Shown in pieces: positions 9,488 through 48,125 of a DNA stretch of 51,429 nucleotides. Positions within the stretch are counted from its first letter, which is position 1. The number at the start of each line of letters is the position of its first letter. The DNA is from Nitrososphaerales archaeon (GTDB taxonomy: Archaea > Thermoproteota > Nitrososphaeria > Nitrososphaerales > JACPRH01): positions 1 through 51,429 of the forward strand of contig JASLOE010000004.1 of assembly GCA_030745655.1 (NCBI GenBank). Direction: 5' to 3'. Under the pieces are notes generated by a model. It had not been told where the DNA came from. It worked only from the letters and a program-made list of their open reading frames with translations, and ran no database searches. The position numbers were made by a program, and so were the translations under genes.

Positions 9488-10498
9488 TTGTGTATGGTGT
9501 ATCTAACATATGTCGGAAGTTTTCCACTAAAAAATACGATTGAAAATATTACAAAAGCCACCAAGGATCTTCTTTCAATTCCAATAGATTATCCTAACTA
9601 TGTGCAGCTCGAAGATATGGTGCACCAATTCCTTCAACCAATATCAGTGAAATATACATCCGGAACTACCAATTATTGGGATACCGAAGAAGGAGAAAGA
9701 TACAGTCTATTTGAAAATCTGAAAACATTCAAGAATTCAATATCAAATGATGCTTTCAAGATACTTCTTAAGTTCAGTAAAAATAATGAGTTCAAGAAGG
9801 ACTTGAAAGGTATTAAAGCTTGTGTAACAGGACCCTTCACTCTTTCAAGTAGAATAATGCTTAACAATCGTAATCCAGGTCCATTTGGTGAAACTGCTTT
9901 ATCCAATCCTTCAGTGGTGAAAAAAATTACTGATGTAGTTTCCAAGATTGCGGGAGATTATTACAAGATGGGAGCTGACTATGTGACAATAGATGAACCG
10001 ATGCTTTCCGTTCTAGTGGGAAAGAATCTGTTGTTGAATCAATATCCTGATGTAGAAATTGTCGAAATTATCAATAAATGCTCTAGTGAAATGAAAAGTC
10101 TTAGTGGTATACATGTATGTGGAAGAATATCAAGGCGACTTGCAGAAATACTATTACAGTCTAATATTAGTGTTATAGACCATGAGTTCAAAGACACTGA
10201 ATCGAACTTCGGTGTCTACAGTAAATCAGATTTTGAGAGTCATGATAAAAAGCTAGGTTTTGCTGTAACATCATCAAAAATAATGAGGATTGAATCTGTG
10301 GCCGAAATTGAGTTAATGTTAACCAAAGGACTCAAAACTTTTGGAAAAGAAAATATTTTGATGGTTAAACCAGACTGCGGATTTAGGGGTTTGGATCCAA
10401 AAGGACATTTGGATGATACTGCTTATACTTCTTCAATATCAAAGCTGAAAAATATCCGGTTGGCAATTAATTCATTGCAACGAAAAAAAATTCTTTAG
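9488..10498 (+). CDS. metE: core-type cobalamin-independent methionine synthase
   Basis: A 336-residue protein equivalent to the C-terminal catalytic half of MetE, as found in archaea, which methylates homocysteine or a related thiol. The zinc ligands are visible as the His/Cys pair in GIHVCGR and the second cysteine in VKPDCGFRGL. ITGPFTLS appears as VTGPFTLS and the active-site IDEP as TIDEPML. The N-terminal MetE half is absent, so the methyl donor may not be the polyglutamyl folate used by bacterial MetE. The start is TTG 9488, though ATG 9494 is also in frame. Confidence 0.85.
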   Translation: MCMVYLTYVGSFPLKNTIENITKATKDLLSIPIDYPNYVQLEDMVHQFLQPISVKYTSGTTNYWDTEEGERYSLFENLKTFKNSISNDAFKILLKFSKNNEFKKDLKGIKACVTGPFTLSSRIMLNNRNPGPFGETALSNPSVVKKITDVVSKIAGDYYKMGADYVTIDEPMLSVLVGKNLLLNQYPDVEIVEIINKCSSEMKSLSGIHVCGRISRRLAEILLQSNISVIDHEFKDTESNFGVYSKSDFESHDKKLGFAVTSSKIMRIESVAEIELMLTKGLKTFGKENILMVKPDCGFRGLDPKGHLDDTAYTSSISKLKNIRLAINSLQRKKIL

Positions 10499-10576
10499 TT
10501 TACCCAACTTACATTCATTACTTTATTATTATTTACAACCAGTCTTATAGAATTTTGAACCTTTTTTTACATTGAG

Positions 10577-11617
10577 TTGCTATCGAATCCATCAGAAATT
10601 GTAATGCTAACTATGGTTGCAATAGCTGCTGTAATTGCTACAAGGATAATTAGAGATGTAACATCTTCTGCTCGAAAGAGAAGATATACGCGTCCAGTAA
10701 AGTATGTATTAATCCTCTCATTGAGTTTAGGTTTCGTTTTTTCATTTTTTGAGACCGCCGCTCTTCTAGCTGCTGAAATTATGGCTTTAGCTATATTGCT
10801 CCTATCATTATACTTCTATCTAGTAGGAGGTTGGTTGACTTCTCACCAAAATCTACGAAGTTTCTGGATTCCTAGTAAAACAATCAAGGATTGGTTCTTT
10901 TATTTATCTCTTTATAATGGTGTAATTGGTGTAGTTTCTGGTGTTCTTTCTGTTATTCTTCCATACTTTACTTCTTTTGAAGTTCCAGCAACTATTGGGA
11001 CTGTGTATTCCGGAGTATCAGTGCTTGCGGCTTTAATGGAGTTTACAATACTTTTGCCAGATAAGAGTACAATATGTGGGTTAGTTTATGCTTTCTGTTT
11101 CGTTACTCGAAGATTCAATAACAGCAAAGAATTTTATGTTGAAGATATTGATTTTGAAAAGATGATAACTAACACAATTCATTCAGAGGTTGATGTAAGA
11201 GAATCCTTGGAATCCCTTGTGAAACAAGGTTTTGCAGTAAAGCAGTCACCTACCCCGATGGGACGGGTCCGTTTTAAGATTAATGTGTATGGTGCAAAGT
11301 ATTTAGAGGTTTACTGGACAGAGACGCTGATCAGAATATCTAGACAAAAAGAAAGGATTGAGAAAGTCCTTACTTATGTTGAGCATAGGTCAAATAACGT
11401 AAATCCAAATGATACTAAAATAATCGTAAAAGCACTGGAAGAACTCTGTTTGCAGAAGAGTAAACTTAACCTTCTTCGCGAAGAATATGGACTTGCTGTT
11501 GGAGACTCCTGGTATCATAACGCAAAGAAAAGAATTGACTGGCTAGAATCTAGGTTCCAAGGTTTGAAGGGAGTTCATCCACAAGTAGAGGCTCAAAGTA
11601 ATTCAAGTGGAGTCTAG
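10577..11617 (+). CDS. membrane protein with cytosolic C-terminal domain, unknown function
   Basis: I do not recognise the family. The 346-residue product has about five hydrophobic segments in the first 170 residues (for example AIAAVIATRII near 15-25, ILSLSLGFVFSFF near 47-60, and MALAILLLSLYFYLVGG). A charged half of about 175 residues follows. The segment DVRESLESLVKQGFAVKQS around residue 210 looks like a winged-helix core, and a coiled-coil-like segment follows. It could be a membrane-tethered regulator, but that is inference. The start is TTG 10577. It stands alone between metE and the cdvB-like gene. Confidence 0.6.
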   Translation: MLSNPSEIVMLTMVAIAAVIATRIIRDVTSSARKRRYTRPVKYVLILSLSLGFVFSFFETAALLAAEIMALAILLLSLYFYLVGGWLTSHQNLRSFWIPSKTIKDWFFYLSLYNGVIGVVSGVLSVILPYFTSFEVPATIGTVYSGVSVLAALMEFTILLPDKSTICGLVYAFCFVTRRFNNSKEFYVEDIDFEKMITNTIHSEVDVRESLESLVKQGFAVKQSPTPMGRVRFKINVYGAKYLEVYWTETLIRISRQKERIEKVLTYVEHRSNNVNPNDTKIIVKALEELCLQKSKLNLLREEYGLAVGDSWYHNAKKRIDWLESRFQGLKGVHPQVEAQSNSSGV

Positions 11618-11870
11618 TACTCTAAAGTAATTATTAATGTGAAAAAGAAATAAGAATCCCTAAAGTATCTGATGAAATAAGTGAATTATTAGGTAATGTA
11701 GTTTTTTCATTGTATTCTTGATCTTCCTTTTCCCAACTTCTCATCAATAAATCAGATTCAGACAAAGTCAATTTAAAACTACGAAAATATTCTTTGCCAA
11801 CCTTTGTTTGGTCACTTGTCTATTCTTATTAGCTTTTGAATGTAATAAATCTTCAGTAGTTTGAAATGGT

Positions 11871-12515
11871 ATGACTGATTTTGTAAAACAGTGGGATAAA
11901 AAAGAACCGGCACGATTTTCCAAGCTTAAAGATAAGATGACACCATCTGATCCATTTAGGCCTAAAATTGCGATTGCTGAAAAAAAGATCAAGATTCAGA
12001 TGAATAAGATGGAAATTGCTTTGTCAAGAATATCTGATAGAGATGCCTTCATCTTTCGGAAGGTAGTCTTAGCACTTCAGCGACAGGATCGTCAGCGAGC
12101 TTCAATTTATGCAAATGAACTTTCAGAAGTTAGGCAATTAGGAATACTTGTAACTCAAGCTAAACTGGCTTTACACCAGGTAGTTTTGAGACTAAACACA
12201 GTTCGAGACCTCGGGGATGCAGTTACAGTCATTTCTCCGATTTTGTCTGTTGTAAAAAATGTTGGATCCAATCTTTCTTATATCGTTCCAGAGGCTCAAG
12301 GAGAGATTGGTGAAATAAGCAATCTTTTGAGTGATATCTTGGTAGATGCAGGAGGAATCAGTGGCAATACTCATATTAATACAACAACTACAAATGAAGA
12401 GGCAGATAAAATCCTAGCAGAAGCTTCTACATTGGCTGAAAAGCGGATGAATGAACTTTTTCCTGCTGTTTCCACTCATCAATTACAGCAAGAGAAAAAA
12501 CAGGTAGAAATTTAG
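11871..12515 (+). CDS. cdvB: ESCRT-III/CdvB-like Snf7-family protein
   Basis: A 214-residue Snf7-domain protein related to archaeal CdvB, which polymerises during membrane scission in TACK division. The helical core spans residues 15-150, with the typical heptad-rich QMNKMEIALSRISDRD and VVLRLNTVRDLGDAVTVISP segments, followed by an acidic linker helix. The C-terminus lacks an obvious winged-helix or MIM2 region, so it resembles the CdvB1/B2-type paralogues rather than the CdvA-binding CdvB. It is not next to cdvA or cdvC here. The start is ATG 11871. Confidence 0.88.
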   Translation: MTDFVKQWDKKEPARFSKLKDKMTPSDPFRPKIAIAEKKIKIQMNKMEIALSRISDRDAFIFRKVVLALQRQDRQRASIYANELSEVRQLGILVTQAKLALHQVVLRLNTVRDLGDAVTVISPILSVVKNVGSNLSYIVPEAQGEIGEISNLLSDILVDAGGISGNTHINTTTTNEEADKILAEASTLAEKRMNELFPAVSTHQLQQEKKQVEI

Positions 12516-12714
12516 AGTCAATTAATCTAAAAATACATATTCAAAAATCACGTATATGCTGTAGTTAAACTACTTTCATCATCCTTTCTCTAAGGATTCA
12601 ATAGATATTATTTGATTTTGATCATAATCTGATCTTATCTCTTAGATAACTGAATAACAGGTTGATAAAAACTTGGCATTTTACTTGGATAAAGTTATTG
12701 ACCCTAATTTTATT

Positions 12715-14322
12715 CTAATGTTTGAATGCCCTTGATCCACTATAAACTATTGCTATCTTATAATTATCAGCTACATTGATTATAATATCGTCTCTAATAG
12801 ATCCACGTGGTTGAATAATTGCCTTTATACCGGATTCTGCCAGAAGGTCAACACTATCGGGGAAAGGGAAGAACCCATCAGAGGCTGCAATTGCACCCTT
12901 GGCTCGTTCACCTGCATTATCTAATGCTATTTTTGTGGCGCCATTTCTCTTTCTGAAACTACCAACTCCTAATGACCAGAAATGTGTTAAGAGTCCATCT
13001 TCGCACAACCCATCTGCAATTAGTATACCATTGGACTGAATTTTTCTAACAACTTCCCACGCAGCTAAGAGTTTTGCTGTTGTGTCCAAATCAGGCTTAA
13101 TCTTTGTAGGGTAGGAGAGGCTCTCTATATTCAGTTTTTCGTGATAGTTTACCGGAGTCTGAACCATTAATGTGCTTTGAATAAATTTTAGATCAAATGG
13201 GTAATTTGAAGTTTTATTCGCTTTTATTAATCTCATCTTTTTCTTCTGTTTTGCCTTTAGAATCTCTAAAGCGTCCTTATCATAATCTGGAGCGACAACG
13301 ATCTCTGTGTAGACAGAATTATCATCTACACCTGCATTTCTTCCAATGAGATGAGCACTATCAATATTAACCGGCTTATTAATGACAGTTATTCCTCCAT
13401 AATCAGCTTGAGGGTCACAGGCATGTGCTAACTTGTATGCTTCTGCGATAGTGGGCGCAAAAGCGAATCCACTAATATTTCCATGTTTCACTGTTACTAC
13501 AGCTTCAACATCATCAAACCCTTCAAGAATTTCAAATGCATGCCCAATATCTAGATGATTATTGAATGATCTATTATCTCCATACAGCTGTTCCCAATCA
13601 AGCATACCGTTGAATTGATCTATTTTATAAACAGCAGCTTTTTGATCCGGGTTTTCTCCATATTTTGTATCTTCAAACTTGGTTGATGAAATAAAAAACT
13701 TATCAGAATATCCTGGTTTCTTACTAAATCTTTGAATACCATTGTATATAGCTATATCGTAAGCTGAAACCATACCAAAGGCTGCTTCGGCAAGTCGGAA
13801 TCTAGTCTCTGTTGATAGTTTTCCTTTATTTTGTGACATGACATCTAATATGAAACTATATTGTTCAGGATTGGTAATTACTGCTACCGATTCATGATTC
13901 TTAGCAGCTGCCCTGACCATTGAAGGTCCACCTATGTCAATATTCTCGATTACTTCTTCATAGTTAGCGTTATTCTTGGAAATAACCTCCTCAAACGGAT
14001 AGAAGTTGCAAACTACCATATCGATGGGCTCTATATTAAATCGGTTGAGTTGCTGCATATGGTCTTCTCCTCGTTTTGCAAGTAAACCTGCGAATATTTC
14101 TGGTTGAAGAGTTTTCACTCTTCCATCTAACATTTCCGGAAACTTTGCCACTTCTTCAAGTTTTTTAACTGATATGCCTGTATCTTCTATTGCTTTCCTT
14201 GTACCACCTGTTGCAATAATCTTAACATTATACTGTTGTAATTGTGAAACAAAATCTACTAAACCTTGTTTAGAGTAAACGCTTATGAGTGCAGTCGAAA
14301 TTTTCTTGAACCCTTTGTTCAA
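12715..14322 (-). CDS. purH: bifunctional AICAR transformylase/IMP cyclohydrolase
   Basis: Catalyses the last two steps of IMP synthesis. The N-terminal MGS-like cyclohydrolase domain (1-200) carries ISVYSKQGL, ATGGTRKA, MLDGRVKTLQP and ENIDIGGPSMVRAAAKN. The C-terminal transformylase domain carries KHGNISGFAFA with the catalytic Lys-His pair, and DGFFPFPDSVDL, then IQPRGSIRD. The length of 535 is standard. A few normally invariant positions differ: Ile follows Asn in KHGN where Pro is usual, and the end is SGSRAFKH where RxFRH is usual. The start is TTG 14322. The gene stands alone. Confidence 0.95.
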   Translation of the reverse strand: MNKGFKKISTALISVYSKQGLVDFVSQLQQYNVKIIATGGTRKAIEDTGISVKKLEEVAKFPEMLDGRVKTLQPEIFAGLLAKRGEDHMQQLNRFNIEPIDMVVCNFYPFEEVISKNNANYEEVIENIDIGGPSMVRAAAKNHESVAVITNPEQYSFILDVMSQNKGKLSTETRFRLAEAAFGMVSAYDIAIYNGIQRFSKKPGYSDKFFISSTKFEDTKYGENPDQKAAVYKIDQFNGMLDWEQLYGDNRSFNNHLDIGHAFEILEGFDDVEAVVTVKHGNISGFAFAPTIAEAYKLAHACDPQADYGGITVINKPVNIDSAHLIGRNAGVDDNSVYTEIVVAPDYDKDALEILKAKQKKKMRLIKANKTSNYPFDLKFIQSTLMVQTPVNYHEKLNIESLSYPTKIKPDLDTTAKLLAAWEVVRKIQSNGILIADGLCEDGLLTHFWSLGVGSFRKRNGATKIALDNAGERAKGAIAASDGFFPFPDSVDLLAESGIKAIIQPRGSIRDDIIINVADNYKIAIVYSGSRAFKH

Positions 14323-40347: not shown

Positions 40348-41277
40348 ATGATCAACCCCTTCTATGGTAGGGACATTATATCGATAAGAGATTTTTCAAA
40401 ATTAGATCTTGAATATCTATTTAAGATGTCTGATAATATTCAGAAATTATCTCCTATGAAGTTGAAAGAATTGGCTTCAGGCAAACTCTTAGGCACATTG
40501 TTTTTCGAACCTAGTACAAGAACACGTTTAAGTTTCGAAGCAGCAATGCAATCAATTGGTGGTGGAACTGTATCGATAATTGAAGCTCGAACATCTTCAA
40601 TCGAGAAAGGAGAAAATCTTAATGATACGATTAGAACAGTAGAGTCATATGTAGATATTTTGGTTCTCAGACATCATATGGAAGGTGCCGCACGATTTGC
40701 AGCACAGATTGCAGAGAAACCTGTAATCAACGGAGGGAGTGGAATTGAAGAGCATCCTACTCAGGCAATGTTGGATATTTACACTATATTGAAAGAGAGA
40801 GGTCGAATAACAAATTTGAAAATCGCTGTCATAGGTGATCTAAAATATGGAAGAACTGTTTATTCTCTCCTATATGGTTTAGCACACTTCAACCCAAAAA
40901 TCTTTCTAGTCTCACCTCCTGATTTAAAGGTGAGAGATGAAGCGCTGATTGACCTTGAAGAAAAAGTTAAATTTTCTTTGCACGAAAATATTGAAGAAAT
41001 AATTGAGGAGGTTGATGCGATTTACGTAACCAGAATACAGAAAGAGAGACTTCCAGACCCTTTAGAATATGAAAAAGTGAAGGGGTCTTATGTGATCGAT
41101 AACAAATTACTTTCTAAGGGGCGGGATGACTTGATAATTCTTCATCCGTTGCCTCGTACAACCGAAATAAGACCTGAAGTAGATAAAACTCCAAATGCAA
41201 AATACTTTATTCAGGCACATTACGGGAAGATTGTACGAGCAGCTCTGATTAGTTTAATGTTGAATGAAAAGAATTAA
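40348..41277 (+). CDS. pyrB: aspartate carbamoyltransferase catalytic subunit
   Basis: Makes carbamoyl-aspartate, the committed step of UMP synthesis. 309 residues from ATG 40348, which gives the usual N-terminus NPFYGRDIISIRDF; a TTG at 40297 would add 17 residues. The carbamoyl-phosphate loop FEPSTRTR is present, then GDLKYGRTVYSL, and HPLPRTTEIRPEVD near the C-terminus. Its stop overlaps that of the convergent nrdJ by four bases (TTAA). Confidence 0.96.
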   Translation: MINPFYGRDIISIRDFSKLDLEYLFKMSDNIQKLSPMKLKELASGKLLGTLFFEPSTRTRLSFEAAMQSIGGGTVSIIEARTSSIEKGENLNDTIRTVESYVDILVLRHHMEGAARFAAQIAEKPVINGGSGIEEHPTQAMLDIYTILKERGRITNLKIAVIGDLKYGRTVYSLLYGLAHFNPKIFLVSPPDLKVRDEALIDLEEKVKFSLHENIEEIIEEVDAIYVTRIQKERLPDPLEYEKVKGSYVIDNKLLSKGRDDLIILHPLPRTTEIRPEVDKTPNAKYFIQAHYGKIVRAALISLMLNEKN

Positions 41278-43859
41278 GCGCAGAAACCCCAACCGCAATC
41301 AGGGCAGGTTGCACATCCTTCTAAAAAGAAGATCTGAGAATCACAGATCGGACAAACATCTCCTTTTTCTGTCTGGTCCCTATATTCCATTACATATGTC
41401 TGATCAGTTACATTTGATATACCAACAGTTCGCAGATTGTTATTATCTTTTGATTTTACAGATGGGTCTTCCAGATGTATAGACCCAATTGATTTAGTAG
41501 GTTTGTCGGTTCTTTTTCTCTTATTAGCTACTAATACTTGGTCCTTTATTGAGGAATCCCTAAAAACAGTGATATCCTTACAACCTAACTTATATGCTAG
41601 CAAATAACTTTCACGCATAGATTCAGTTGTTGCATCTGCTGGAAAATTATTTGTTTTAGAAATAGATGAATCAACCCATTTTTGAAGTGAAGCTAGTGCC
41701 TTTATATGATCTTCAGGAGTTATATCAAGTGAAGTTACAAATACGTCTTTTAACTTAGGTGAAATATATGCTATTTTCTGTACACTTCCATTTCTTTCGC
41801 TTACTTCACGAATCAAATCACTATCATACAGTCCTTCTGCATTCATGACTCTCTCAAAAACTGGATCAACATAGTGAAATTTACCTATTTTCACATTCTT
41901 TTCATATACCAAACTATATACCGGCTCAATACCACTACTACAACCCGCTATCATTGATATGCTCCCAGTTGGTGCTATGACTGTGGTATACGAATTTCTC
42001 AAGCCAACATCCTTAACTTTCGTGGCAATCTCATTCCAATCAAAGAAACATTTCTCATTGTTCTCGTATCCACTGAATGGAAGTTTGCCTTCATTAAAGA
42101 AACTCTTTTCAAAATATGGGAAGCTCCTACGACTTCTTGCTAATTCAATTGATGCAACTTTGGAATAATAGTTTACAAATTCCATTAATCTCTCCATAAA
42201 ATTTCTTCCATCTTCACTATCATAAGATATTCCTAAATCAAATAGGAGATCGCCCAACCCCATAATCCCCAGACCTATCTTGCGTGTTGATAAAGTCATA
42301 TCTTCAATTTCTTGTAATGGGAAGATGTTAATGTCAATTACATTATCAAGAAACTTAACAGCAGAAATAATGGTCTCTTTCAAACCGTCCCAATCAAAGA
42401 ATCGTTCTCCTCTATCATCTATTCTACAGAATGACCAGACATTTATGCTCCCTAAATTACAAGACTCATTAGGATATAGCAGTACTTCACCACAAGGATT
42501 AGTGCATTCTATTGGACCTAAAGAATCCATAAATGGGTTATGCTTATTCACATGATCTGAAAAAATTAAACCTGGTTCCGCACTTTCCCATGCTTGATAT
42601 ACTATCATGTCAAAAAGCATTCTTGGGTTAACTTCACGTATAACTTCACCGTTACGAGGATTTACGAGTGGATATGGCTCATTCTTCTCATAATAATCCC
42701 AGAAATCTGGAGATACTAAAACAGATATGTTGAAGTTTCTCAGAGCGATGTTACCTTTCTTGGCAGTTATGAACTTCTCAATATCTGGATGATTTATATT
42801 CATAATTCCCATGTTTGCGCCTCGTCTAATACCGCCTTGTTTGATTACCTCAGTCATCATGTCAAAGAGTCGCATAAAGCTAAGAGGTCCAGAAGCTATA
42901 CCTGAAGTTGAACTAACAATATCCCCTTCTGGTCTAATATTTGAGAAGTTGTAACCCATCCCACCACCAGACTTGAATATTATGGCCGCCTTCTTCAGAG
43001 TATCCATTATACTTTCTATAGAATCTTCCACTTTAATGACAAAACAAGCAGAACCCATTCCCAAAGGATTTCCAAAATTGGCTAAAACTGGGGTGTTCGG
43101 CATAAAGTGTTTATTTATCATTAAGTTATAGAATTCATCTGCTGTCTTCTCATATTTATCAAATTCAGAGTTTTGAAGTAACATAAGGAACCTACTCCAG
43201 TTCACTTTCATGAATCCATTAAGATTCATTCTGTCATATAGATGCTTCAACGATTCTAAATGATACCTATTTAACCGATATTTTCCAATGCTAAACTTAT
43301 CTTCATATTTTCCAAAATCGAAGTCCTCATCCTTATGTGTTGCAAGTCCACCGTCTTGATTGTATATTCTTTCATCAAATATTAAGTCCGTTAAAACAAC
43401 ATTAATCGTAACTCGCATAAATAATTGCTTAGGTGTTTCGATTAGTCGAGACCCATCTTTTCTAAGATATCTCGCCTTCATAACACGTAATGCATTGAGA
43501 TCAAAATGTTTGTCAACTTCATCTATGTCATCTTTTTCCAGAATTGTCTTTTTCTCTTCTCTTATCTCTGCTCTCTTCTGACGATAAAGGATGAATGCTT
43601 TTGCTGCTTTAGATTGTCCCTGCTCCATCAACACCTTTTCAACCATATCTTGAATATCTTCTACAGTAGGCATAGTGGATGGTGAAAACTTCATGTTCAC
43701 CAGCTCAACCAATCTATCTGAAAATCGTATTGCTAAACTTTTATCCTTACCACCTACAGATTGGATGGCTTTCCATAAAGCTATAGCAATCTTCTCTTGA
43801 TTAAATTCGAGAACCCGCCCATTACGTTTCTTGATCTTTGTGATTTTATTGGTTTCCAC
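41274..43859 (-). CDS. nrdJ: adenosylcobalamin-dependent (class II) ribonucleotide reductase
   Basis: Reduces ribonucleotides to deoxyribonucleotides using a B12-derived thiyl radical, so it works with or without oxygen. 861 residues: N-terminal ATP-cone (about 5-95, KIKKRNGRVLEFNQEKI), catalytic barrel with ECTNPCGEVLLYPNESCNLG, the finger-loop and AGCSSGIEPVYSLVYEKNV, and a C-terminal zinc ribbon with four Cys (CPICDS and CATCPDCGWGFCA) supplying the reductant cysteines. No intein. The start is GTG 43859. Its upstream region holds paired repeats (see 44017 and 44049). Confidence 0.95.
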   Translation of the reverse strand: METNKITKIKKRNGRVLEFNQEKIAIALWKAIQSVGGKDKSLAIRFSDRLVELVNMKFSPSTMPTVEDIQDMVEKVLMEQGQSKAAKAFILYRQKRAEIREEKKTILEKDDIDEVDKHFDLNALRVMKARYLRKDGSRLIETPKQLFMRVTINVVLTDLIFDERIYNQDGGLATHKDEDFDFGKYEDKFSIGKYRLNRYHLESLKHLYDRMNLNGFMKVNWSRFLMLLQNSEFDKYEKTADEFYNLMINKHFMPNTPVLANFGNPLGMGSACFVIKVEDSIESIMDTLKKAAIIFKSGGGMGYNFSNIRPEGDIVSSTSGIASGPLSFMRLFDMMTEVIKQGGIRRGANMGIMNINHPDIEKFITAKKGNIALRNFNISVLVSPDFWDYYEKNEPYPLVNPRNGEVIREVNPRMLFDMIVYQAWESAEPGLIFSDHVNKHNPFMDSLGPIECTNPCGEVLLYPNESCNLGSINVWSFCRIDDRGERFFDWDGLKETIISAVKFLDNVIDINIFPLQEIEDMTLSTRKIGLGIMGLGDLLFDLGISYDSEDGRNFMERLMEFVNYYSKVASIELARSRRSFPYFEKSFFNEGKLPFSGYENNEKCFFDWNEIATKVKDVGLRNSYTTVIAPTGSISMIAGCSSGIEPVYSLVYEKNVKIGKFHYVDPVFERVMNAEGLYDSDLIREVSERNGSVQKIAYISPKLKDVFVTSLDITPEDHIKALASLQKWVDSSISKTNNFPADATTESMRESYLLAYKLGCKDITVFRDSSIKDQVLVANKRKRTDKPTKSIGSIHLEDPSVKSKDNNNLRTVGISNVTDQTYVMEYRDQTEKGDVCPICDSQIFFLEGCATCPDCGWGFCA

Positions 43860-44016
43860 AATTATTCACCAAATCTTACTGAACAAATATGATGGGGAAT
43901 TGTTGTGATGGCTTTCTTGTTATCGGTGAAACAGTCTTGACGCTTATTAATGCTCATAGCCACAACAACTTCAAAAAAAAGAGTTAATGAGACGCTTTTG
44001 GGTCAATAGCATTTGA

Positions 44017-44058
44017 CTTGAATAATGCAATGAAAACGCTCTCATTGCCTTGAATAAT
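44017..44058. repeat. tandem CTTGAATAAT direct repeats
   Basis: Two identical 10-bp copies at 44017-44026 and 44049-44058, spaced 32 bp, about three helical turns, so both face the same side of the DNA. Their position upstream of nrdJ suggests a transcription factor site; this is inference. Confidence 0.5.
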
Positions 44059-44188: not shown

Positions 44189-46288
44189 CTAAATAGTTGA
44201 GTATAGTTTCATAGAAGTTGATTTGCAAGAGTCACATTTCTCTGTTCCTTCAGGAAACTTGTCACCACATGCACGGCATACCGCCATTTTATGCCAAAGA
44301 TGATAAAATCCTGTATTTTTTTGTGCTTTGCCAATTATTTCTGATAACATCTCAATAGATCCACCAGTTGGTATCTCGATCTCAATTGTGGAACCTCCAG
44401 ATAATGATTCATATGATTTATGTAAATTTCGCAAATAATCTATCTTGGAAAGTTCTGAATGAGTAACTATGGGGGTCTGACTATATCTACTCTTACCGGA
44501 TGGAATAGATATTAACGATCTACCATATTTCTCAATGTCCATTGATGCAAAGCGCTCTCCAGAATCCCCTTGTATTATTGCAACAAATGCATTCTCATTA
44601 AGTTTCACACTAATGTCAGCAGCACTCTTAGAAGATGTCTCTAGTATTTTTTCCAATAAAGAACGTTTATCCGACATCGTTGCCCTTTCTCCTAACAATT
44701 TGATAATGGCTTCATTAAGGCCAGTTAGATTTACAATAAGCGGAACATATTCTTCTTCCACCATCGTTGTTCCATTAGTTAATGCCGGTAAAAGATTCTT
44801 TCGTGAAAGATTGCTTATTATCTTTTTTCGAGTATGTAGGGCACTTATTGACGTTTGTATAGCCATAGTGAGTTTGGCTCTAAAATACGTTTCATCTCTA
44901 TTCGATTCATAGGAAAGTCTTGGTAAATTAATTGCGAGAGAATGTAGTATTTTTACATTGTCTGCAGGAAACCTTTTTTCTCTATCTCTGCGCAATCCTG
45001 AATAAGCAATAGCACCATTCATATTATTGGATATTCCAATTTTTCCACCTGAATATATTGCAGATGATAACATACTTTTTAGCTTTGGTTCTATTTCTGA
45101 ATCAGTTGTGAATACTAAGTTTACCATAGGTTCAGAAACGCTCTTGACATATTCTTCGTATGCCAAAAATGTAGCTTCTAAAACTCTTTTTATCAAAGCT
45201 TCATCAAATTTTGATGAACTATTATCTTTACCCACTTGTAATGAAATAATTGGGATACCATGCCCTCCGATTGTAATAGCCGGTAAAAGCATTAAAGCTC
45301 TTTTTACCGTTTCTTTAAGTTCATGCTTAGTTTTCTCCTGAGCGAATTCAGCTAAATAGGATGTGAAGTTCTCTAATGATATTTCTGAGGAAACTTCTTT
45401 GCTAAGAATAGCGGTAATATTAACTAAAGTACTCAGAGCCTCATCAAGTTTTGTTGGGGGTTCTACCTTTGGAATTGCAGAAAGTTTACCCTTAAGATTA
45501 ATTCCATTGATTCTTAATGCCTCAAGATCAAAAAACACAGTATCAGGCATAAGTCCCCAGCTTCCACCATTTGAAATATGAATCTCACCTGCTAGATGTG
45601 CATCGGTGACATCTCTTGGTAGTTGCGAGAGCATCAAATATTCTGAAAAAACAGCATTCGCTGTCTTGGATAAAACGGTTCCAACATCCCCTTCACCAAA
45701 ACCTGTATTGTTTATCATTTCTGAAATATCATAAATAGGTAGGCCGAGTCGTGTTAGTTTATGTCTATACTCTTCAAATCCATGCTCTACAAGTAATGCA
45801 TTAACCATCTCTCTTATGAGTGGTGCTGTCAAGTAAATAGTCTGAAATTTATAGAGCCTGGCCTCGGTTTCGCTAGTGATTCGCTGTGCTAATTCTACTG
45901 GCATTCCTGCTTCTCTAACTAAAGATTGAAGGATTTTATCAGAGTTGAACTCCTCCATTGTCTGTCTTGAAGTTCTAACATAGAGCTTTCCGCTCTCAAC
46001 AACAGATTGTTCTTCTATCTGTCTTGTGACATTTAATACAAGCCTTCCCAGACTTGTAACTGTGTATTTTCGTTCTTGTCTATTTAGAGATATAAGCATT
46101 TGTCTTACAAGCTTGCGAAGATGGTATGCAAATTTACCTGATTCTTTTTTTGATTTAAACCCAGCTAATGTTTTAAGCTCAGAATAGCTTAATGGCCCTT
46201 TTGTGTTAAGGATGCGAAGAATCTCCAGTCTATTTGAAGATGCTATAACTGAATAGATCGTTCTAACTCTTCTGGAAACAGGTTGCAT
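44189..46288 (-). CDS. HTH + ATP-cone + inactive NrdD-fold protein with zinc ribbon
   Basis: A 699-residue mosaic. Residues 10-90 form a winged helix of ArsR-like type (EILRILNTKGPLSYSELKTL). Residues 100-185 are an ATP-cone (VRTSRQTMEEFNSDKILQSL). Residues 190-660 follow the fold pattern of anaerobic reductase NrdD. A zinc ribbon has Cys671, Cys674, Cys685 and Cys688. These four are the only cysteines, so the catalytic thiols of NrdD are absent. The protein ends KLYSTI, just where NrdD continues into its glycyl-radical loop. It cannot be a reductase. I infer a nucleotide-sensing DNA-binding regulator, probably of nrdJ. The start is ATG 46288. Confidence 0.8.
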   Translation of the reverse strand: MQPVSRRVRTIYSVIASSNRLEILRILNTKGPLSYSELKTLAGFKSKKESGKFAYHLRKLVRQMLISLNRQERKYTVTSLGRLVLNVTRQIEEQSVVESGKLYVRTSRQTMEEFNSDKILQSLVREAGMPVELAQRITSETEARLYKFQTIYLTAPLIREMVNALLVEHGFEEYRHKLTRLGLPIYDISEMINNTGFGEGDVGTVLSKTANAVFSEYLMLSQLPRDVTDAHLAGEIHISNGGSWGLMPDTVFFDLEALRINGINLKGKLSAIPKVEPPTKLDEALSTLVNITAILSKEVSSEISLENFTSYLAEFAQEKTKHELKETVKRALMLLPAITIGGHGIPIISLQVGKDNSSSKFDEALIKRVLEATFLAYEEYVKSVSEPMVNLVFTTDSEIEPKLKSMLSSAIYSGGKIGISNNMNGAIAYSGLRRDREKRFPADNVKILHSLAINLPRLSYESNRDETYFRAKLTMAIQTSISALHTRKKIISNLSRKNLLPALTNGTTMVEEEYVPLIVNLTGLNEAIIKLLGERATMSDKRSLLEKILETSSKSAADISVKLNENAFVAIIQGDSGERFASMDIEKYGRSLISIPSGKSRYSQTPIVTHSELSKIDYLRNLHKSYESLSGGSTIEIEIPTGGSIEMLSEIIGKAQKNTGFYHLWHKMAVCRACGDKFPEGTEKCDSCKSTSMKLYSTI

Positions 46289-46369
46289 AGACTTAACCTC
46301 TCTATGTGAAGGTATTTTAATTTAATTAGAAATTTTCAACCTAACTATCTATGCTTGTGGTCAAGGCTT

Positions 46370-46390
46370 ATTGACTTGAGTGAAATCAAT
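46370..46390. promoter_or_regulatory. inverted repeat sharing TTGACTTGA with the nrdJ promoter
   Basis: ATTGA (46370-46374) and TCAAT (46386-46390) form an inverted repeat, and TCAAG/CTTGA (46361-46365/46375-46379) another. The core TTGACTTGA at 46371-46379 is identical to that at 44014-44022. It lies in the divergent spacer of the NrdD-like regulator and the antiporter. Confidence 0.4.
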
Positions 46391-46520: not shown

Positions 46521-48125
46521 ATGTCTGCAGCTGAGGGAATACTCTTTCTGGGTCTCCTAATAATTGGAGGTAAAGTCTTCGAAGAGCTATTTGTAAAAGT
46601 TAAATTGCCAGGACTTTTGGGTAATGTTTTAGCGGGGTTAATTCTTGGCCCAAGTTTTCTTTCTATTGTAAAACCTACAACTGAAATTGAATTATTCACA
46701 AGTCTAGGAATATTCTTTCTCTTTTTCTTGGTTGGTGTAGAAGAGATTGATCTTCCCGGTTTGTTATCTTCGCTTAGGCGAAGGGTCTTTTATACAGCTG
46801 CAGTGAGTTTCTTAGTTCCTTTTCTATTATCTTTTTACATGTCTCAAAGTATTGGAATAAATAATATTTCAAGTCTTGCTCTAGCCGGAGTAATTGGGTT
46901 ATCTAGCCTTGGTGTAGTTGCTAAGACTCTCTCTGATTTGGACCACCTTAGGGACCCTGTTGGATTAGAAATATTTAGTATTACTGCAATACTTGAATTT
47001 GTTGGTCTAATTACAATTAGTCTTATTCTGCAGTTATCAGCAGAACCATTATCATCTGCACCATTTCAATTACTGGTTACTCTTGGTAGAATGACACTTT
47101 TTTTCATCGTGGCATCATTATTCAGCCTCAAAGTACTTCCAATTCTTCTTAGATTTATTAGGCGCCATACAGAAGTTAAAGGAGTTTTCTTCGGAGTTTT
47201 GATAGGAATTGTCCTATTATTCGTCTATATCGGTGAGATCAACGGTGTTCATGGTGCAATAACATCTCTATTAATTGGGCTTGCACTTTCACAAATGCCT
47301 AAAAAAGATTATCATCAGAGCATCAGTGGATTACGAAGTATAGCAAATGGAATATTCGTTCCAATATTTTTTGCAGGTGTGGGTCTTCAGATAACATTCA
47401 AATTTTTAGAGCTTGATTTATCATTGATAATAGGTTTCATTTTAGTGGTTGTGGTGGGAAAATTTTCTGGAGCTTTTCTAGGTGCCCTTGTAGGACGAAT
47501 GAAATATCCTCTTTGGATAAGCTCAGGAGTTATGGCGAAAGGATCAATAGATTTAGCATTGATGCTTACTTTATTTAACCTGAATTTGATCGATCAAAAA
47601 ATATTCTCCCTTGGTACCTTTTCAATTCTTCTTCTACTGGTAATATCCCCACTGTCAATGCGTCTATTATTAAAGAAAGGAGATGAAGATACGGAAAAAA
47701 TCGGTGAAGATCTGATTCCAACATATACAGAACTTGCCTGTGAGGGTGTGAACGTCAAAGACGTTATGTCTAATAATACATTAACAGTGAGAGATAAAAT
47801 AACTATCGATGAATTTCTTAAACATCTTGAGAAAGGAGAACGTTTCTATAATGTCGTTGATAAAGAAGATAAACTAATTGGACATGTCTCTGCAAAAGCC
47901 CTTAAGAAAAGTCGACGCCGATATTGGAAGACAAAAAGTGTAGGATCGGTTATGAGAAAACGAAGGGTTAGAGCGTTCGAAGATGATGATATATCCTCTA
48001 TTGTTGAGAAAATGTCGCGTAGCGGTGTTGATCCAATACCTGTAGTCGATTCATCAGATACTTCTAAGATAATCGGAACTATTTCAAGAGAAAATATTAC
48101 TTCATTTTTATTTCCAAAAAAATAA
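46521..48125 (+). CDS. CPA2-family cation:proton antiporter with two CBS domains
   Basis: A KefB/NhaS3-like sodium or potassium proton antiporter. Residues 1-390 form about 12-13 membrane helices (KLPGLLGNVLAGLILGPSFL, LFFLFFLVGVEEIDL, GVMAKGSIDLALMLTLF). Residues 410-534 hold two CBS motifs (VKDVMSNNTLTVRDKI and VGSVMRKRRVRAF), which bind adenine nucleotides and could regulate transport. The start is ATG 46521. It is divergent from the NrdD-like gene; a functional link is not evident. Confidence 0.9.
   Translation: MSAAEGILFLGLLIIGGKVFEELFVKVKLPGLLGNVLAGLILGPSFLSIVKPTTEIELFTSLGIFFLFFLVGVEEIDLPGLLSSLRRRVFYTAAVSFLVPFLLSFYMSQSIGINNISSLALAGVIGLSSLGVVAKTLSDLDHLRDPVGLEIFSITAILEFVGLITISLILQLSAEPLSSAPFQLLVTLGRMTLFFIVASLFSLKVLPILLRFIRRHTEVKGVFFGVLIGIVLLFVYIGEINGVHGAITSLLIGLALSQMPKKDYHQSISGLRSIANGIFVPIFFAGVGLQITFKFLELDLSLIIGFILVVVVGKFSGAFLGALVGRMKYPLWISSGVMAKGSIDLALMLTLFNLNLIDQKIFSLGTFSILLLLVISPLSMRLLLKKGDEDTEKIGEDLIPTYTELACEGVNVKDVMSNNTLTVRDKITIDEFLKHLEKGERFYNVVDKEDKLIGHVSAKALKKSRRRYWKTKSVGSVMRKRRVRAFEDDDISSIVEKMSRSGVDPIPVVDSSDTSKIIGTISRENITSFLFPKK

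Follow-up and report, generated by a model that had tools for sequence, protein, structure and literature searches.

A likely ribonucleotide reductase regulator built on a catalytically dead NrdD in Nitrososphaerales

Introduction

How the supply of deoxyribonucleotides (dNTPs) is controlled in archaea without NrdR is a question to which no answer was found in the literature searched. NrdR is a repressor of ribonucleotide reductase (RNR) genes that combines a zinc ribbon with an ATP-cone, and dATP plus ATP in this cone gives a DNA-binding tetramer (PMC9110341). A single locus of the Nitrososphaerales, an order that includes abundant ammonia-oxidising archaea, offers a candidate regulator, a predicted operator, and a presumed target. 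The window examined here (the whole stretch of DNA that was analysed, 51,429 nucleotides of contig JASLOE010000004.1) belongs to a Nitrososphaerales MAG, with ETNP2_MAG_84 as the nearest named relative (89% identity). The candidate regulator is a 699-aa protein whose database name, anaerobic ribonucleotide reductase, is misleading as it implies a working class III enzyme.

Table 1. Features of the candidate regulator locus and their positions in the window
Feature	Position	Strand	Remarks
Regulator candidate, wHTH + ATP-cone + catalytically dead NrdD + zinc ribbon	44189..46288	(-)	699 aa plus stop
Winged helix-turn-helix (wHTH), residues 1-100	45989..46288	(-)	GFKSKKESGKFAYHLRKL = predicted recognition-helix region
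ATP-cone, residues 101-178	45755..45988	(-)	VRTSR...EEF..KI...YLTAPLIRE...
NrdD-like body, residues 179-660	44309..45754	(-)	NLPR kept; catalytic Cys absent
Zinc ribbon, residues 661-699	44192..44308	(-)	C671, C674, C685, C688
nrdJ, class II (B12-dependent) RNR with its own ATP-cone	41274..43859	(-)	presumed target
Predicted operator 1, perfect GTCAA-N6-TTGAC	46360..46375		71 bp upstream of the regulator ATG
Predicted operator 2, perfect GTCAA-N6-TTGAC	44002..44017		between the two genes, 142 bp ahead of the nrdJ start
Predicted operator 3, one mismatch	43926..43941		upstream of nrdJ, 76 bp from operator 2
TATA-like TTAAAATA	46313..46320	(-)	about 25 bp upstream of the ATG; family-conserved; promoter role inferred

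Results

Domain architecture and predicted structure

Pfam searches of the 699-aa protein identified a DUF7347 winged helix (PF24038) at residues 11-86 (1.9e-10, above the cut-off), an ATP-cone (PF03477) at residues 103-174 (5.1e-8), and NRDD (PF13597) at residues 204-696 (2.3e-32). Homology to NrdD was also detected by profile (E 3.6e-33), while in NCBIfam the NrdD similarity was only partial, with a score of 103 bits lying far under the cut-off of 326. The architecture was found to be shared by the homologues, with NRDD and the ATP-cone present in 60/60 and the DUF7347 wHTH in all but one of these. When the full-length protein was modelled by AlphaFold (pLDDT 85.6), the model matched NrdD structures by Foldseek (9dca, E 2.4e-22). 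The N terminus modelled alone (pLDDT 94.7) had NolR, CzrA, CadC, and SmtB as its best Foldseek matches (E about 1e-3, probability 1.00); this domain resembles ArsR/MarR regulators, its sequence profile retrieves ArsR proteins, and the N terminus is predicted by the model to be an ArsR-like wHTH. Its predicted recognition-helix region was almost without variation across Nitrososphaerales. The loop of the ATP-cone reads VRTSR in place of the canonical V-K-R-(D/N)-G, and thus the ligand preference of the cone may differ or binding may even be lost. It is also possible that the NrdD-type dimer interface survives in the fold.

Loss of catalysis

Catalysis has been lost at the sequence level. The protein has exactly four cysteines, all within the zinc ribbon, and its C terminus (...KLYSTI*) lies ahead of the column of E. 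coli Gly681, i.e., before the glycyl-radical loop. The column of E. coli Cys175 is occupied by Thr in the 699-aa protein and by Thr, Glu, or other residues in all of the winged-helix homologues. Because the active archaeal NrdDs of this data set likewise have no Cys in the column of E. coli C384 but carry a CC pair, to which the SCCR motif of Thermotoga maritima NrdD is comparable (PMC4493059), that column was judged non-diagnostic and the CC pair and RxxGY glycyl-radical motif were used as catalytic criteria. Both features were detected in all five of the neighbouring active NrdDs, whereas none of the 60 homologues had either the RxxGY motif or a Cys pair outside the ribbon; no conserved Cys column was found among the homologues outside the zinc ribbon. 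The ribbon itself was complete at all four Cys positions in 59 homologues, with a gap in the remaining one. Some proteins of the deeper relatives (probably members of Bathyarchaeia and related groups) keep much of the C-terminal tail, with the radical Gly replaced by Ala, Ser, or Asn. Residues N454, P456, and R457 of the NLPR motif were invariant, which suggests partial retention of the former active-site frame. A BLAST search for the NrdG activase with the E. coli protein gave no match within 44 loci (the search was confined to the loci, and divergent activases were outside it).

The initial annotation had described a winged helix, ATP-cone, NrdD body, and zinc ribbon with no cysteines beyond the four of the ribbon, an end at KLYSTI before the glycyl-radical loop, and a catalytically dead reductase. 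Each of these claims held, with the support of the Pfam domains, the ribbon cysteines, the alignment, and the absence of catalytic motifs from all 60 homologues; its suggested comparison of a predicted structure with NrdD gave the match described above. Two of the findings that it had named as refuting were not supported: (i) homologues keeping the catalytic Cys, of which there were none among the 60; and (ii) a downstream frameshift restoring the glycyl-radical region, as homologues end alike or have the Gly replaced. A truncation or frameshift artefact was likewise ruled out, with relatives at 89, 77, 71, 54, and about 42% identity ending alike.

Distribution and conservation

A homologue was present in 38 of 41 relatives, nearly always as a single copy per genome, and in 282 of 397 genomes of the phylum, although the weakest of these latter matches are probably to the ATP-cone alone. 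Three relatives had no homologue: in two of them PF02867 reductases were missing altogether, and in the other a reductase gene lies outside this type of locus. As a side observation, G009 (family f6) is 99% complete and has no regulator homologue, and its only nrdJ apparently corresponds in type to the additional, non-adjacent nrdJ found in the sister genome G023. In a maximum-likelihood tree built with the winged helix left out, a 100/100 branch separated 34 winged-helix proteins from 13 active NrdDs.

The gene is not broken. Mean pairwise identity within Nitrososphaerales reached 76% in the wHTH and 71% in the ATP-cone compared with 36% in the body and 35% in the ribbon region, and when Nitrososphaerales were compared with the deeper group the ATP-cone was best conserved (57% vs 22% for the body). 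Since the wHTH and ATP-cone are conserved and the body poorly so, we infer from sequence alone that this profile fits a nucleotide-responsive DNA-binding protein rather than an enzyme.

Linkage to ribonucleotide reductase genes

In the window, nrdJ is the next gene downstream of the regulator candidate on the same strand. BLAST placed nrdJ immediately after the regulator gene, in the same orientation, in 22/22 Nitrososphaerales loci whose flanks were long; pyrB and pyrI often came next. Each of the 58 readable loci has a long ORF on the same strand beginning 67-525 bp downstream of the regulator gene. In a class-level relative (L085), nrdJ adjoins the regulator gene in convergent orientation. 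The slot before pyrB/pyrI in the deeper relatives was occupied by an active nrdD in five loci (L096, L097, L099, L101, and L102), by nrdJ in L106, and was empty in others; thus, the winged-helix protein tracks the reductase locus rather than one reductase class.

Two side observations concern the neighbouring genes. The type of adjacent nrdJ varies by family (L081, L082, L084, and others), with or without an ATP-cone and from 715 to 1149 aa, which looks like in-place swapping of the reductase; the longest products may contain inserts. Divergent from the regulator gene and sharing its upstream region is an antiporter-like gene (cation/proton, with a CBS-like C terminus) at 46521-48125(+), an arrangement also seen in the closest relative (L001).

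Absence of NrdR from the order

NrdR is absent from Nitrososphaerales. No true NrdR was detected above the cut-off in the relatives examined, the sole copy in the bin being on contig C1 of G000 (L139 and L140). The NrdR model TIGR00244 gave no match to the 699-aa protein, the N terminus of which is a wHTH and not a zinc ribbon, and neither of the intergenic regions contained an NrdR-box-like match at up to 3 mismatches. On C1, NrdR (L139:10034-10474) is directly followed by a TSCPD-tailed nrdJ (10471-13263), and RFC genes and a second RpoB are found there as well. This NrdR was considered as a rival regulator in the same genome and rejected: C1 is most likely contamination from another archaeon as it carries its own nrdJ, its RpoB is only 39% identical to the other RpoB of the bin, and its tetranucleotides deviate.

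A palindrome upstream of the regulator gene and nrdJ

Alignment of the five genomes of the window family revealed conservation of GTCAA-N6-TTGAC ahead of the regulator gene, with the same palindrome also upstream of nrdJ. When every 5-mer palindrome with spacers of 0-12 was enumerated across 31 lineages, with dinucleotide shuffles as the control, GTCAA with a spacer of 6 was ranked at the top and found in 15 lineages; in the shuffles it occurred in 0-3 lineages, and motifs containing at least two G/C never exceeded 4-6. The perfect palindrome was detected exactly twice in the 903-kb assembly, before the regulator gene and before nrdJ, and 6/7 perfect sites in the five genomes of the window family were at the regulator-nrdJ locus. 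Away from this family, perfect sites in the rest of Nitrososphaerales were at about the control frequency. When one mismatch was allowed in the 22 loci outside the window family, 18 sites were found in the 8.3 kb of both upstream regions (0.12 expected) vs 4 in 277 kb elsewhere, while spacers of 4, 5, and 7 gave only chance levels in the same loci; these loci are related, such that the nominal P is only indicative. A wider regulon is not claimed because 10 of the 12 one-mismatch sites examined elsewhere in the assembly lie inside ORFs.

The motif was not uniform. Most genomes of families f7, f9, f2, and f3 were found to lack it or to have an altered form (spacer 5) despite a closely similar wHTH; f9, which comprises many genomes and which we take to be probably Nitrosopumilaceae, has the spacer-5 form before nrdJ. 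The GTCAA motif was not found in the deeper relatives, where the recognition helix differs. Some of the upstream matches in f10 and f16 coincide with a conserved TATA-like element. With respect to promoters, operators 1 and 2 are positioned upstream of the likely TATA region, and in f13 and f6 the second of the sites preceding nrdJ coincides with a TATA-like stretch. Where paired sites precede nrdJ, their separation is 72-76 bp in f1 and f13, compared with 66 bp in f6, a spacing that could suit a bridging oligomer. As a separate observation, AATGAGA (43986-43992) and TCTCATT (44040-44046) bracket the nrdJ operator and are possibly the site of another factor; their cores are kept in 5/5 genomes of the window family, and a TCTCAT-like sequence is also present in f13 and f6.

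Discussion

Proposed mechanism

The 699-aa protein probably controls ribonucleotide reductase transcription in an NrdR-like way, as an autoregulated, nucleotide-sensing factor; there are no binding or expression data for this reading. It is strongly implied, again without binding data, that a dimer recognises the GTCAA-N6-TTGAC inverted repeats that precede its own gene and the adjacent nrdJ. In this model, ATP vs dATP in the ATP-cone would alter the oligomer and hence DNA binding, with dATP as the presumed signal by analogy with NrdR (PMC9110341); dNTPs at an NrdD-type dimer interface may perhaps assist this sensing. Synthesis of the reductase would thereby be matched to the dNTP supply, and the role of NrdR would be filled in an order without it. 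The weakest inferred step is that the effect would be mainly repression plus autoregulation through a pair of operators preceding nrdJ and separated by about 72-76 bp; the sign of regulation is an inference, and the placement of operators 1 and 2 upstream of the TATA region also fits activation in archaea.

Alternative explanations

The strongest rival is that the protein is a transcriptional activator, which when bound upstream of the TATA box would recruit basal factors at low dNTPs. In its favour, operators 1 and 2 are upstream of TATA-like elements and not over them. However, the overlap of the second nrdJ sites in f13 and f6 with TATA-like stretches is as for a repressor, and the site pairs 66-76 bp apart recall the two boxes of NrdR; on balance we lean against activation without discarding it.

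Alternatively, the palindrome may be owned by another transcription factor, with the 699-aa protein regulating something else. The pairing of protein with DNA is only inferred, and motif form and protein sequence are out of step in f7 and f9. This reading is nonetheless unlikely, as the strongest sites flank exactly the regulator gene and nrdJ, with those elsewhere at chance level and mostly in ORFs, and as a closely similar wHTH goes with the motif in 15 lineages.

It is very doubtful that the protein is an inactive allosteric partner of the NrdJ (or NrdD) protein in which the winged helix serves only as a protein-protein or autoregulatory module. Tight linkage to an RNR gene of any class, the RNR-type ATP-cone, and an NrdD dimer interface that may be kept speak for this possibility. 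Against it, (i) the protein pairs with NrdJ and NrdD, with or without an ATP-cone of their own, and no conserved protein interface is expected with partners that are RNRs of different classes; and (ii) within the order no domain is better conserved than the wHTH, and the palindrome precedes both genes.

An ordinary class III reductase that is missing its end through assembly error can be all but excluded: database models do call the protein NrdD, but relatives across Nitrososphaerales terminate at nearly the same point and lack the catalytic Cys, and the family forms one clade separate from active NrdD.

Comparison with known systems

For the preferred reading of an RNR regulator, the closest functional parallel is NrdR (PMC9110341), with which the 699-aa protein has in common an ATP-cone, genomic association with RNR genes, a palindrome of 16 bp preceding both the RNR gene and its own gene, and no expected enzymatic role; the paired sites before nrdJ likewise recall two NrdR boxes. 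In contrast, NrdR, with about 150 aa, recognises NrdR boxes through an N-terminal zinc ribbon, whereas the 699-aa protein has a wHTH as its DNA-binding candidate, a different operator, a dead reductase body, and a ribbon that is C-terminal and NrdD-type. The likeness to NrdD (PF13597; 9dca, 4coi, 8p2c, and 1h78) extends over the whole fold, the ATP-cone, NLPR, and the C-terminal zinc ribbon; unlike NrdD, the protein has no catalytic Cys or glycyl radical, has gained a winged helix, and adjoins a working reductase. Over residues 1-100 it shares its fold and weak sequence similarity with ArsR/SmtB-type wHTH and DUF7347 proteins, and a palindromic site suits a wHTH dimer, yet its wHTH is fused to an RNR and lacks metal-sensing cysteines.

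The initial annotation had placed the gene just upstream of nrdJ, which held in the window and across Nitrososphaerales, and had inferred an RNR regulator analogous but unrelated to NrdR. The inference of a regulator was supported by the sequence-level tests, with DNA and nucleotide binding still inferred; 'unrelated' held only in part, being true of the DNA-binding domain and body but not of the ATP-cone, which is of the same domain family. BirA, PutA, and ROK repressors are regulators that reuse a metabolic enzyme fold as a sensor for the same pathway; to our knowledge, no enzyme-derived transcription regulator is built from a ribonucleotide reductase. A published description of a winged-helix dead-NrdD regulator was not found in the literature searched. 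The protein is probably an ATP-cone RNR regulator with an architecture for which no report was found, its binding to DNA and nucleotides being inferred; also new here is the palindrome shared by the regions before the regulator gene and nrdJ.

Evolutionary implications

A bolder reading, towards which we incline by a modest margin, is that these proteins are phylum-wide transcription factors from a dead RNR, born by duplication beside an active nrdD, retained when a class II nrdJ took the slot, and replacing NrdR as the dNTP sensor in the archaea to which the ammonia oxidisers belong. If true, the enzyme central to DNA-precursor synthesis became a transcription factor controlling the very pathway it came from, and the relic glycyl-radical tails in deeper relatives would be preserved intermediates. 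As a minor observation on the deeper group, the upstream regions of the active nrdD genes in L096, L099, L101, and L102 have in common ACAnnATTTTATA followed by a TCTAAAA-like sequence, which together may represent a promoter or operator of this group.
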